Shown here: positions 1,972-62,473 of the stretch, piece after piece
Layout: each line of letters starts with the position of its first letter
Position numbering within the stretch: position 1 is the first letter of the stretch
Origin: Lactiplantibacillus xiangfangensis
GTDB taxonomy: Bacteria > Bacillota > Bacilli > Lactobacillales > Lactobacillaceae
Assembly (NCBI RefSeq): GCF_001438845.1
Contig: NZ_JQCL01000103.1
Coordinates: forward strand, 225,379-289,378
Reading direction: 5' to 3'
Length of the DNA: 64,000 bases
Position numbers and translations under genes: made by a program
Notes under the pieces: generated by a model
Databases searched by the model: none
What the model was told of the DNA's origin: nothing
What the model saw: only the letters and a program-made list of their open reading frames with translations

Positions 1972-4101
1972 TTACTTATAAGCAACGGCGATGAGGTGGT
2001 CGTCATCCTTCACCATTTCTAGTTCCACGTCGACAATTGACATTAATTGTTCAATCGTTTGCATCCCCGTCAAGTCTAGCATCTTTTCTTTGTAGAATAA
2101 GAAGACCTTGGGGATAGTCGCATTGGCATCCGAATACGTCGTGTGATCGTCAATAAATGGCACTAGCGCATCATCGACTTCGTTCTTCTTACAATGCAAC
2201 GTAAACGTGTTCTTCTGTTTAAAACGAATCACACCTTCACGGTCAATGACACAACTGTCGGTCTTCTTACGCTTAAAGAACAACATGCCACTAACGGTCG
2301 TCGCGTTTAGCAGTTTCCAACGCCCCGTTTCACTATCTAAACCAACACTGTTGATATCGGCGCCAAGCGCATTAGCCGCTAATTCGCGGTACTGTTGTTC
2401 ATCCAAAGCCGCTTCACTGAAATTCTTTTGCCGCAGTTCAGTTGCACCAGTTGCTACCGCCCGCACAACGTTGTGCTGTGCATCAATTTCAATGTTCACA
2501 TCAACGGTATCTTCATTGGCACCAGATTGAGTAATCTTTTCGATAACGTCCGCCCGAATTTGCTTAATATCCTGGTCAGTTGGGTTAGTCAATGACCGTT
2601 CGATCTGTTCACGCACCATTGCTAAAGCGACCCCAATCGTTGAGATATATGGCGCATTTTTTGCGATTTTAAACTTATTTTTAAACGCTTCCGCTAATGG
2701 TGGCGTTACGATTGAAGCACTTCCGCCGCCACCAATAAAGGTAACCATGTGCGGATCAAGATCGTAATCCGCAATCAAATCTTGAATGGTTGGTGATAGC
2801 TTCGCAATGGCCCTGTCAACGACTTGGCGAGCCGCTTCCTTGCCCGTGATACCTAAATGCTGACCTAACGCCTCCCAAGCAATCGCATTACTCTCATCAA
2901 TACCGTGCGCGTAATCGTCATCCGGCACGTAGCCTAATAAGTTAGCCGCGCCAGCAAGGGTGTACGAATACACTCCCTCATCCGTTTTAACAACGGCGTA
3001 TTCCGCCGGGTCACTTGGACGTGGTGAAACGTATTCCACCGTCGGATGACTAAACTGATCTGCCGGTGTAAAGCATTCATAATCTAAGTTTGCAATGTGC
3101 GCACTCCGCGGACCAACGTCTACGATTTTGCCATCGGTAATTCGAACCATACTACCACCGGCAACACCTAGCGTCCGCACATCCAGTGAACGTAGGTAAG
3201 TCTTATGTCCACCAACCTGTGCGTATTTGATCATGACTTTCCCATTTTTAATAACAGAAATGTCCACACTGGTCCCACCGACTTCGAAGAAGATCCCATC
3301 ACTCACTTTTTCGTACATCAGGGCACCGGCAACTCCCGCTGCTAGTCCTGAAAGCATCGTCAAGATTGGCCGTTTACGAACTTCATTGATACTCATGACA
3401 CCGCCATCGCAGCGCATGATCATCAAATTACTTTTAATATTCGTATCAATGACCGCTTGTTCCGTCATGTTAGCAGTTTGCATCATCTTAGGAATTAACG
3501 ACGCATTGATGACCGCCGTCCTTGTCCGCATTTTCAGCCCATATAATTCTGAGATTTCATGTCCACCAGTGGCGTACAGGCCCTTTTTCTGGGCAACATC
3601 GATCACCGCTAATTCATTAGTTGGGTCATCAACGCTGTACGCTTCACTGGCCACCATAACTTCACAGTTGTCCTTCTTTAAATCATCAATCGTGTCCGAA
3701 ACAAGCTGTTCGGTCAACTTACCAGAATCAAGAAACCGGCTTTCCGTTTTGAGAAACTTTTTAGGTGCTAATTCGATTGGTGGCACCTTGGTTTCTTTTT
3801 GAGCACCTTTACCATCTAACCCGGTTCCCATGCCAATGATACCGACACTTGCAACGTCTCCTTCGAGTAACGCGTTGGTGGCTTGGGTCGTGCCATGAGC
3901 AATAAAAACAACGTCTTCAGGCGCAATGTGCCCTTTTGCTAGTAGTTCCTTAATAATTCGGACAATCCCAACGGCCACGCCTTCTTCGTGCGTCGTCGGA
4001 ATTTTAATTTTGTTAACGATTTCATAAGTTTCGTCGTCAATGGCAACGGCATCCGTAAACGTCCCACCAACATCAATTCCAATTCTAACTTTTCTACCCA
4101 T
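1972..4101 (-). CDS. Hydantoinase/oxoprolinase-family protein (HyuA type)
   Basis: Members of this ASKHA-fold family (HyuA, N-terminal half of 5-oxoprolinase, acetone carboxylase subunit) use ATP to activate cyclic amides or ketones. Signatures are IGIDVGGTFTDAV near the N-terminus, HGTTQATNALLEG near residue 90, FEVGGTSVDISV near 270 and FIGGGGSASIVTPPLAEA near 480. The 709-residue product has a C-terminal extension of about 180 residues that I do not recognise. No HyuB partner gene is present. I prefer the ATG at 4101, 8 bases after AAGGG, over the in-frame GTG 9 bases upstream. It lies between a permease and an HExxH protein. The substrate is unknown; an oxoproline-like or hydantoin-like ring is possible. 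Confidence 0.88.
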   Translation of the reverse strand: MGRKVRIGIDVGGTFTDAVAIDDETYEIVNKIKIPTTHEEGVAVGIVRIIKELLAKGHIAPEDVVFIAHGTTQATNALLEGDVASVGIIGMGTGLDGKGAQKETKVPPIELAPKKFLKTESRFLDSGKLTEQLVSDTIDDLKKDNCEVMVASEAYSVDDPTNELAVIDVAQKKGLYATGGHEISELYGLKMRTRTAVINASLIPKMMQTANMTEQAVIDTNIKSNLMIMRCDGGVMSINEVRKRPILTMLSGLAAGVAGALMYEKVSDGIFFEVGGTSVDISVIKNGKVMIKYAQVGGHKTYLRSLDVRTLGVAGGSMVRITDGKIVDVGPRSAHIANLDYECFTPADQFSHPTVEYVSPRPSDPAEYAVVKTDEGVYSYTLAGAANLLGYVPDDDYAHGIDESNAIAWEALGQHLGITGKEAARQVVDRAIAKLSPTIQDLIADYDLDPHMVTFIGGGGSASIVTPPLAEAFKNKFKIAKNAPYISTIGVALAMVREQIERSLTNPTDQDIKQIRADVIEKITQSGANEDTVDVNIEIDAQHNVVRAVATGATELRQKNFSEAALDEQQYRELAANALGADINSVGLDSETGRWKLLNATTVSGMLFFKRKKTDSCVIDREGVIRFKQKNTFTLHCKKNEVDDALVPFIDDHTTYSDANATIPKVFLFYKEKMLDLTGMQTIEQLMSIVDVELEMVKDDDHLIAVAYK

Positions 4102-56400: not shown

Positions 56401-56625
56401 AAAAAAAGCGCTCAGAAATTAATCCGAACGCTTCATTCACGGCACTGGTAAACCAGTGGGGGTGACATTCCACAATATCAGTGACCCAAGCACTCTGAAA
56501 TACGTCAGAGAAACGTGCCCCGCTATCAATTTAGTCACTAGCCGCTCGCGCGGAACTTCCATTGCTGGAAATCTGACTTTATCGACTCATCGCATTCACT
56601 ACCCTATCATCTTTGGTCACTAATT
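56401..56625 (-). ncRNA. Structured RNA candidate upstream of the Ser-rich protein gene
   Basis: On the minus strand: a three-way junction closed by AGTCA/TGACT with two GNRA-capped hairpins (TTCCA-GCAA-TGGAA and CCGC-GCGA-GCGG), a hairpin CTCTGA/TCAGAG, a GGGT...ACCC hairpin, CACTGG/CCAGTG, then a terminator AAGCG...CGCTT plus seven T (56401-56433). It ends 118 bases before the gene. No riboswitch class was recognised; some blocks (AGCGGGG, CTTGGGT) recall T-box leaders but a T-box sequence is not clear. Confidence 0.55.
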
Positions 56626-57633: not shown

Positions 57634-58647
57634 TTATTGGGCGATTAAATCAATAATGTCTGTCCGGGAAATACCGGTAAAGTACTGGTTCAAGTCAAGT
57701 GTTGCTAACTTCTCAGCAATCACATCATGATCATACCGGACTCCGGTCAACGCCTCTTCAACGTCGTGGACATCACCACTACCGAAGAAATCACCGTAAA
57801 ATTTTATGTTCTGAATGCGCCCATCGTGCACTGACAAGCGGGCATCAATTGTCCCCATGTCAAAATGCTTCCGGCGCTTGACGGAGAATTCGGGTGATTT
57901 TCCGTAAACCCAATCCCAATTAGCATAATATTCTTCGTAAATTTTATCAATAGCCTTTTGTTGTTCTGGTGTGACGTGGTATTCCTTATCGGCAATCTGA
58001 TCAAGTGAATCCACGTGGAAAAGTTCTTTCAATAAAGCATCTTGAAATTCCGGAACGGTGATTTCTTGATACTCAGGCGCCAAGTATGGCCGCAAATTAG
58101 TGACCCGACTCCGAACGGACTTAATCCCCTTTGATGCAATCTTATCAGTTGGAACAGTCAAAGCTTGGGGGACAACGTCTAAGTCCACGTTGAGCATCAA
58201 CGTTCCGTGTGAGAACGTCTTGCCATTTCTGGAATACATCGCATTGCCAGAAAACTTCTTGCCGTCAACTAATAGGTCATTACGGCCACTGACCGTCGCA
58301 GTAGTTGCGCCCATGTCGTGCAAGGCATCAATGATTGGCTTCGTAAACGTCTTAAAATCACCAAATTCTTGGCTATCACTATCCACCACAAAGCTAAAGC
58401 AAAGGTTACCGAGGTCTTGGTACACCGCTCCCCCACCAGATAACCGCCGAGTAACTTGAATGTGATGGTCACGCACATAGTCCGCGTTAATTTCTTCCAG
58501 TGTATTTTGATTACGCCCAACAATGATGCAAGGTTCCTCGTAATAAAACAAGACTAACGGTTCATCAAAATCAACATTGTTCATTAAATACTGTTCGGTG
58601 GCTAAGTTGCGACCGATTTCGTGATCTTTCATTGCAACGTAATACAT
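57634..58647 (-). CDS. lplA: Lipoate-protein ligase
   Basis: Activates lipoate with ATP and attaches it to E2 or GcvH lysines. The 337 residues carry the biotin/lipoyl ligase fold: RRLSGGGAVYQDLGNLCFSFV near residue 75, GRNDLLVDGKKFSGNAM with the catalytic lysine near 130, and FSHGTLMLNVDL, plus the LplA C-terminal domain (about 250-337). GAGGAG lies 11 bases before the ATG. A promoter-RNA-terminator unit lies directly upstream, and two small genes follow closely. Confidence 0.93.
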   Translation of the reverse strand: MYYVAMKDHEIGRNLATEQYLMNNVDFDEPLVLFYYEEPCIIVGRNQNTLEEINADYVRDHHIQVTRRLSGGGAVYQDLGNLCFSFVVDSDSQEFGDFKTFTKPIIDALHDMGATTATVSGRNDLLVDGKKFSGNAMYSRNGKTFSHGTLMLNVDLDVVPQALTVPTDKIASKGIKSVRSRVTNLRPYLAPEYQEITVPEFQDALLKELFHVDSLDQIADKEYHVTPEQQKAIDKIYEEYYANWDWVYGKSPEFSVKRRKHFDMGTIDARLSVHDGRIQNIKFYGDFFGSGDVHDVEEALTGVRYDHDVIAEKLATLDLNQYFTGISRTDIIDLIAQ

Positions 58648-58698
58648 AGTGGATTCAGCTCCTCAGCTTTAAATTACTTTAATCATACAACAAGGCAT

Positions 58699-58979
58699 AA
58701 AAAAGGACCCACAATGTGAGCCCCGTTTTGGAAGAATCATTCAAAATTTCGTGTGGAATTCTTCATTCCTCAAACACCATTGATCCACAATCCACATCCA
58801 TGAACGTTCTGATTGGCGGCAACCCGCTCTCCGTGGATAATCCGTGCCATCAATAGATGGAGTTTGGCCAGCCAGTTATCCGAAATTAGCGGAAACGCTG
58901 TATACTGCACTAGCTATCACTTGACGGGTTTGTTACAACAATAGGGTAACGTTTGATACTGACCTGAGATTCTTCCGAT
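58699..58979 (-). ncRNA. Candidate structured RNA of about 280 nt upstream of lplA
   Basis: On the minus strand a promoter (TTGCAA 59009-59014, 17-base spacer, TATATT 58986-58991) fires just before GGAAGAATC (58968-58976), which pairs exactly with GATTCTTCC (58730-58738). Inside are hairpins GTTAC/GTAAC, AGCG/CGCT, GGATAA/TTATCC with CCATC/GATGG, CAATC/GATTG and GGAAT/ATTCC. A terminator GGGGCTCAC-ATT-GTGGGTCC plus six T follows (58699-58724). No class recognised; it could be a stand-alone RNA or a leader of lplA. Confidence 0.65.
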
Positions 58980-58985
58980 AAGCCC

Positions 58986-59014
58986 AATATAGCACAGAAT
59001 GTAAGCGATTGCAA
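58986..59014 (-). promoter_or_regulatory. Promoter of the lplA-upstream RNA
   Basis: TTGCAA and TATATT with exactly 17 bases between, on the minus strand; the predicted start is 3-4 bases before the 5' arm of the closing stem. Confidence 0.7.
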
Positions 59015-59022
59015 TAACGCTC

Positions 59023-59058
59023 AAAAAACAACCCGGCCAGCACATGCCAACCAGGTTG
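59023..59058 (-). terminator. Terminator of acm2
   Basis: On the minus strand CAACCTGG..GGC and GC..GGCCGGGTTG form a stem with six T following, about 85 bases after the acm2 stop. A further ATGGCG/CGCCAT hairpin lies before it. Confidence 0.78.
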
Positions 59059-59142
59059 CCTGAAGTTAATGGCGGTCGTAATCGCCATCTATCTTACTAG
59101 CTAAATTATAAAACCGCCGGACGGATAAGACAACTTACTTGC

Positions 59143-62020: not shown

Positions 62021-62473
62021 ATGCTACAACAATATCAAAATATCTTGGTACCAGTTGATGGCTCCAAAGCCACTGAAGAAGTTTTAAGACGCGGCATTGA
62101 AGTTGCGAAACGGAACAAGACCCATCTAGACATTCTCAACGTACTAGAAGTTAACCAGTTCAGTGACACGTACGGTGGCGCTGTAAGTGGCGACGTCATT
62201 TACAAACTATCTGAAGACGTGCAAAAGCGGTTGGAAGAACTGAAACAACGCGCAATCGATGCCGGTGTCACCGATGTTGACATGCACATTCGTTTTGGTA
62301 ATCCTAAGACGGTTATCGCACGTGAATTCCCAGCTGATCATCATAATCAGCTCATCATGATTGGGTCAACTGGCCTTTCAGCCGTTGAACGCTTAATGGT
62401 CGGCTCAGTCACGACTTACGTTAGCCGTAATGCGGTTTGTGACGTTTTAATCGTCAAGCCAGTCCAAGCATAA
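62021..62473 (+). CDS. Universal stress protein, UspA family
   Basis: A 150-residue cytoplasmic dimer-forming protein of the ATP-binding type: ILVPVDGSKATEEVL at the N-terminus, the adenine/phosphate loop IMIGSTGLSAVERLMVGSVTTYV near residue 115 and the closing CDVLIVKPV. GGGGG lies 8 bases before the ATG. Monocistronic, with a terminator. Expected to respond to growth arrest or stress. Confidence 0.93.
   Translation: MLQQYQNILVPVDGSKATEEVLRRGIEVAKRNKTHLDILNVLEVNQFSDTYGGAVSGDVIYKLSEDVQKRLEELKQRAIDAGVTDVDMHIRFGNPKTVIAREFPADHHNQLIMIGSTGLSAVERLMVGSVTTYVSRNAVCDVLIVKPVQA

Follow-up and report, generated by a model that had tools for sequence, protein, structure and literature searches.

The 495-nt gap (58648-59142) between a glucosaminidase-like hydrolase gene and the lipoate-protein ligase gene lplA, in a 64,000-nt stretch of the Lactiplantibacillus xiangfangensis genome (hereafter the window), houses on its minus strand a promoter, a predicted structured RNA, and an intrinsic terminator, with an exact match to the cre consensus lying over the -35 box. 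Sequence comparison establishes the conservation of this unit, its consensus fold, its terminator, the cre match, the build of its promoter, and its linkage to lplA. Our preferred reading, only narrowly ahead of a cis-acting leader, is a discrete RNA of ~280 nt repressed by CcpA, lplA itself being served by terminator read-through, a weak proximal promoter, or both.

An initial annotation, made from the letters of the window, had described a promoter-RNA-terminator unit here, and all of its elements are found on the minus strand where it placed them (Table 1). The near-consensus promoter that it reported lies at 59014-58986 and matches the consensus at 9 of 12 positions. The closing stem of 9 bp, said to begin 3-4 bases after the start, begins 3 bases past the predicted transcription start at 58979, and its 3' strand (58738-58730) stands apart from the terminator hairpin (58724-58704), as had been claimed. 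The 495-base gap and the 52 bases from the terminator to the lplA ATG are likewise correct. Taken one by one, such elements are near chance: a promoter scan gave 6 promoter-like sites against 5.1 expected, a terminator scan gave 4 terminator-like sites against 3.2 expected, and the single sequence folds with an ordinary energy (z -1.27), matched by 20 of 200 shuffles. These scans and the single fold are by themselves insufficient, and the existence of the unit above chance rests on comparison. There the observation is borne out by its presence in 21 of 21 genomes, by the contrast in identity with surrounding sequence, and by a consensus energy well away from nulls. The hydrolase upstream has a repeated C-terminal segment, in which five stretches match NF052572, all below the model cut-off.

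Table 1. Features at the lplA upstream region, in window coordinates.
Feature	Position	Strand	Remarks
lplA, lipoate-protein ligase	57634..58647	minus	TIGR00545 match of 444.6 bits (cut-off 280); ATG at 58647
lplA-proximal -10-like box TATGAT	58682..58687	minus	no -35 recognised by eye
Predicted structured RNA, 281 nt, predicted start to end of T-run	58699..58979	minus	conserved in 21/21; consensus fold of 65 pairs
Intrinsic terminator, 58724-58704 plus T-run to 58699	58699..58724	minus	predicted hairpin
Closing stem P1, 3' strand GATTCTTCC	58730..58738	minus	pairs with GGAAGAATC
Hairpin GGAAT...ATTCC	58755..58769	minus	helix 11; 2/5 pairs changed on both sides
Arm richest in compensatory changes	58786..58846	minus	conserved GCCGCCAAUC in terminal loop
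Small hairpin CCATC...GATGG	58847..58860	minus	5 pairs, all invariant
5' domain, P2 and helices inside	58866..58964	minus	near-invariant across genus
Closing stem P1, 5' strand GGAAGAATC	58968..58976	minus	9 bp
Promoter TTGCAA-17 nt-TATATT	58986..59014	minus	TG one base before -10 (extended -10); 9/12 consensus matches
Putative cre (CcpA operator) TGCAATCGCTTACA / TGTAAGCGATTGCA	59000..59013	.	overlaps -35 box; exact consensus match
Glucosaminidase-like hydrolase, 781 aa	59143-61488	minus	upstream neighbour of RNA

We found the RNA in all 21 Lactiplantibacillus genomes searched, that of L. xiangfangensis included, at 82-100% identity. In every one of them lplA lies downstream, with 49-52 nt between the T-run and its ATG; the upstream hydrolase was not found within ~1.5 kb in 4. 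In the alignment of these 21 sequences, 20 of them distinct, mean pairwise identity reaches 93.1% over RNA positions 1-117 (the 5' domain), 82% over positions 118-250, and 87% in the terminator, compared with 57% upstream of the promoter, 70% in the spacer to lplA, and 53% at third codon positions of lplA (first 900 nt). The most conserved part measured is the cre/-35 stretch, with a mean identity of 98.7%.

As far as we searched, the full-length RNA appears only in Lactiplantibacillus, with nothing convincing among the 376 genomes sampled from other genera. Blastn against 397 genomes of the family returned matches in 21, all Lactiplantibacillus, and a scan of 84,980 species genomes for an exact 22-base core returned 14 stretches. 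Named Lactiplantibacillus species account for 13 of these; the remaining one belongs to an uncultured Lactobacillus MAG, which is the nearest of the 14 to the window (93% over 7.7 kb). The L. plantarum EGD-AQ4 record shares 75% with the window over 3.2 kb. A covariance model, R1, matched 29 of 301 genomes at E ≤1, 15 of them in the genus and 14 outside it, the latter scoring 10.6-30.4 bits (best E 1.6e-7). We re-searched the nine of these 14 with E <0.01. In L076-L081 and at the second place in L082, the R1 alignment consists of the terminator, the bulk of the model being deleted, and L079, which has a look-alike closing stem, overlaps the final part of a coding frame; L084, L083, and L082 at its first place gave only short rows of 63-79 nt. 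A terminator-free model, R2, matched 27 of 397 genomes, 21 in the genus and six others at E 0.013-0.83. Of these six, all but L087 and L089 were inspected: the best lies inside a reading frame, on its opposite strand, and three more align poorly. The weaker matches inspected for the two models are thus terminators or chance. In both scans, stricter filters applied when more than 40 genomes were searched, with weak matches lost. R2 found nothing convincing at 60 lplA loci of other genera (best 12.5 bits), and a plasmid collection held no match to the RNA. The RNA is not named in the literature listings covered by our search, which gave the openings of abstracts.

RNAalifold gave a consensus of 65 pairs, and in 11 of these both sides have changed. 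Its elements are the closing stem, a multi-helix first domain, an arm whose loop is conserved, flanked by a small hairpin before it and another hairpin after it, and the terminator. P1 retains 9 of 9 pairs in every sequence of the alignment. It is also near certain in the single-sequence ensemble of the window and has a probability of at least 0.67 at three sampled pairs in each of 21 such ensembles. For several inner helices of the consensus, the pairs sampled have probabilities of only 0.02-0.25 in the window, and sampled pairs of the 5' domain range from 0.00 to 0.98 across the single-sequence ensembles. The terminator hairpin is predicted in all 21 sequences at -8.2 to -13.0 kcal/mol. Exposed in the consensus of the 5' domain are CCAAUUGUU (CCUAUUGUU in the window) and AAACCC, which together with GCCGCCAAUC and GAAGA are the accessible conserved runs of the RNA.

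As nulls for this consensus we refolded each of 100 tree-based alignments that preserve the column rates. At -67.5 kcal/mol, the consensus energy lies far below that of the nulls (-39.8 ± 4.7, lowest -52.4), and the 11 doubly changed pairs exceed the at most 4 in these nulls and the at most 7 across all four null comparisons. In the consensus fold 99.5% of cells are paired, falling to at most 43% when the partner is slid by 1-3 columns; this measure does not discriminate against the refolded nulls (up to 99.7%), nor do variant cells still paired (0.93, null up to 0.92) or doubly changed cells (31, null up to 29). When pairs were put one by one to a G-test with a tree-based null, a single pair (columns 163/183) was significant if only structure pairs were considered, and none over all column pairs. 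Covariation falls mostly in the arm at 58846-58786 (helices 9 and 10), where 8 of 11 pairs are changed on both sides, and in the hairpin at 58769-58755. The helices of the 5' domain hardly vary, and covariation therefore tests them little. The covariation test that the initial annotation had proposed thus comes out in favour of the fold in the number of doubly changed pairs, beyond that of the nulls, and weak in its single-pair signal; taken together, the aligned sequences support the structure as a whole.

It is very unlikely that the stretch is a functionless spacer with chance pairing or a short coding gene. The shuffles that fold as well as the single sequence and the weak single-pair covariation would suit a spacer, but the identity of the 5' domain relative to codon position 3 of lplA, and a consensus energy and a count of doubly changed pairs that both lie beyond the nulls, argue against it. 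A 14-codon GTG frame that lacks a ribosome site is common to 13 of the 21 sequences and would suit a coding gene; against this, single-base indels separate the species, and among the 40 commonest frames those of at least 12 codons with a ribosome-site-like stretch keep start and stop in at most 4 of 21.

No Rfam family matched the RNA at the gathering score. The sole match in the window, Ref68 (Enterococcus sRNA 68, Lacto-3 RNA), lies elsewhere, at 56465-56594 on the minus strand (93.5 bits). At E ≤10 two animal microRNA families appeared (E 2.1 and 8.1), chance-level matches that do not fall within the RNA. In five relatives searched at E ≤1 nothing fell in the RNA; a CrcZ match of 44 nt (E 0.03) lies outside it. 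The earlier statement that the RNA resembled no riboswitch class thus agrees with Rfam, which gave no known riboswitch, T-box, or other family.

The accompanying suggestion of a 6S-like RNA fares poorly. The 6S family RF00013 has no match in 58640-59140 at E ≤10, and the match in this genome lies elsewhere, at C53:99064-99252 (189 nt; its 40.4 bits fall short of the 46.4 cut-off). This 6S candidate has upstream a frame that, from its translation, we take to be RarA-like and ~1 kb downstream one that we take to be Usp-like. A rarA/usp neighbourhood is described for 6S RNA of lactic acid bacteria (LAB) in PMC8414754, and it is lacking at the RNA studied here, whose direct neighbours are the glucosaminidase-like hydrolase and lplA. 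A Usp gene does lie 3 kb from the RNA, at 62021 on the opposite strand. A 6S paralogue or divergent 6S RNA would fit the long closing stem and the free-standing look of the unit, as well as the cre over the -35 box, a position found in about one third of LAB 6S genes according to PMC8414754. Against it stand the lack of an RF00013 match here, the 6S candidate elsewhere in the genome, one copy per LAB species in the survey (PMC8414754), and a consensus fold that is multibranched, not a rod with a single central bulge. We consider this reading highly improbable.

The initial annotation overlooked the conserved cre over the -35 box. The site matches TGNAANCGNTNNCA exactly on both strands, and an exact cre is present in the promoter of each of the 21 genus genomes. 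The window contains 6 exact hits to the cre consensus at 5 places, compared with 0.73 expected; the other matches, at 4011, 6858, 32085, and 45391, lack an extended -10 at the spacing of the RNA promoter (one strand examined). A composite of cre, 5 nt, and TGnTAnnnT has an exact match at only 2 places in the genome, the second being L148 (G000:C54:6440-6467). In PMC8414754, a cre over the -35 of LAB 6S promoters is judged likely to be inhibitory. The promoter of the RNA would thus probably be off when sugar is plentiful, under predicted control by CcpA.

We also found this promoter build before lplA in other genera. A looser pattern, consisting of a cre with at most 2 mismatches, 4-6 nt, and TGnTAnnnT within 200 nt before the lplA start, occurs in 20 of 48 lplA loci of other genera and in 0.25% of single-letter shuffles, under a criterion fixed only after the first loci had been viewed. 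A cre with at most 1 mismatch occurs in 29 of the 48 (2.8% in shuffles). The 48 combine 18 of the 30 first-batch loci (L092-L109) with 30 second-batch loci; left out were L110-L121, mostly paralogues, distant copies, or repeats. In the first batch, counted over 28 of its 30 loci after L116 and L117 were dropped as repeats, and with L110, L113, and L114 lacking a usable start, 5 of 27 lplA starts had the pattern; in the second, 15 of 30 loci had it, from the same five genera, so that the loci are not independent. By genus, the looser pattern is present in 20 of 20 loci of five genera (g3, g14, g16, g21, and g25) and in 0 of 28 loci of thirteen others. Local alignment to 10 of the 21 distal promoters gave strong likeness in g16, g14, g4, g3, and g21 (mean z 7.5-3.6) and none in g25 (z -0.1), although g25 is pattern-positive. 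In some genera two lplA-like genes lie close together: G040 (L092), G053 (L101), and matches in G076, G106, and G132.

In the five pattern-positive genera the start of the cre is 59-125 nt from that of lplA, too close for the RNA to fit between them. In Lactiplantibacillus, therefore, the RNA sits between an lplA-type promoter, probably CcpA-controlled, and lplA. PMC3146418 reports that lplA of L. sakei is induced on ribose, a rise that fits release from catabolite repression.

Immediately before lplA lies a second, -10-like box, which reads TATGAT in 17 of the 21 genus genomes, TATAAT in 2, TATATT in 1, and GATACT in 1. It resembles the -10 and start region of g16 lplA promoters (mean z 2.8, 4 loci), with likeness elsewhere in g26 (z 2.4) and at one g23 locus (z 3.1). 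These resemblances are suggestive only, and the box is perhaps the remnant of an older lplA promoter.

We favour, by a narrow margin, a discrete RNA of ~280 nt, made from the CcpA-controlled, lplA-type promoter and ending at its own terminator. We infer that when glucose is abundant, CcpA on the cre over the -35 box would keep the RNA off, and that once repression is lifted it would be made; its near-invariant 5' domain and exposed loops could then bind a partner, whether protein, metabolite, or RNA, and act in trans, away from lplA. The mRNA of lplA would come from terminator read-through and/or the weak proximal -10. This reading is favoured by the behaviour of the terminator arms: when terminator-internal pairs are forbidden, they remain single-stranded in each of the 21 predicted folds. 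It is also consistent with the proximal box (TATGAT, TATAAT, or TATATT in 20 of 21), with the exact cre in every genome, and with the identity of the 5' domain, 93% against 53% at codon position 3 of lplA. On the other side, the unbroken linkage to lplA and the lplA-type promoter suit a cis-acting leader at least equally, the proximal box has no evident -35, and just one base pair is significant individually.

Such a leader, in which the folded RNA would sense a metabolite or protein signal and set the passage of polymerase past the terminator, is nearly as likely. It could work through a ligand-held antiterminator or through processive antitermination, which requires no overlap of sensor and terminator. 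The promoter build shared with lplA of other genera makes it stronger than the initial annotation could know: that annotation had taken the non-overlap of closing stem and terminator to argue for a stand-alone RNA as much as for a leader, and the non-overlap stands, but the lplA-type build had been missed. lplA follows the RNA in all 21 genus genomes, including the 4 in which the hydrolase was not found within ~1.5 kb, and the near-invariant 5' domain is as expected of an aptamer or protein-binding site; the induction of L. sakei lplA on ribose (PMC3146418) points the same way. Short complementarity to the terminator arms also exists upstream, with runs of at least 6 in up to 14 of 21 sequences for the 5' arm and up to 19 of 21 for the 3' arm, each in one 24-column stretch and each count without a chance level, so that a ligand-held antiterminator is conceivable. 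The best duplex partners vary between species, however, that of the 3' arm lying at columns 217-238 in 11 of 21 sequences and elsewhere in 10. Against a leader also speak the constrained folds, in which the terminator arms find no alternative pairing, and the -10-like box that lplA retains. Linkage within one genus could be plain inheritance, and 28 of the 48 lplA loci elsewhere are without the promoter build. More specifically, the RNA might represent a new, genus-specific class of cis-regulatory RNA, whose near-invariant 5' domain, on binding a protein, lipoate, or an intermediate of lipoylation, would let polymerase pass the non-overlapping terminator; this we regard as rather unlikely.

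Species of Lactiplantibacillus are much-used food and gut bacteria, and the strongly conserved RNA that we describe lies where carbon catabolite control meets the attachment of lipoate to central enzymes. RNA regulation in lactobacilli could be approached directly by experiment through it. Should it act on lplA in response to a lipoate-related signal, it would be a kind of switch that, within a non-exhaustive search, is not known to have been described.

Among known systems, LAB 6S RNA (RF00013) resembles the RNA in its closing stem, its terminator, and, in many LAB, the cre over the -35 (PMC8414754); it is unlike it in fold and length, has a model that does not match here, and is represented by a candidate elsewhere in the genome. 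CcpA-repressed small RNAs are known in other Firmicutes, for example RsaI of Staphylococcus aureus and SR1 of Bacillus subtilis, and the present RNA would likewise be made once carbon catabolite repression lifts; it differs in that no relevant Rfam match appeared at E ≤10. The EAR and put RNAs are conserved structured leaders that act by processive antitermination, with a fold that does not overlap the terminator. The RNA described here differs in having no Rfam match and is like them in its conserved fold apart from the terminator. Unlike riboswitches, T-boxes, and other terminator-controlled leaders, it has neither a competing antiterminator fold predicted in the constrained folds, although short runs complementary to the terminator arms make one conceivable, nor a match to a known class, yet it shares with them the succession of promoter, structured RNA, and terminator before a metabolic gene at a near-fixed distance.
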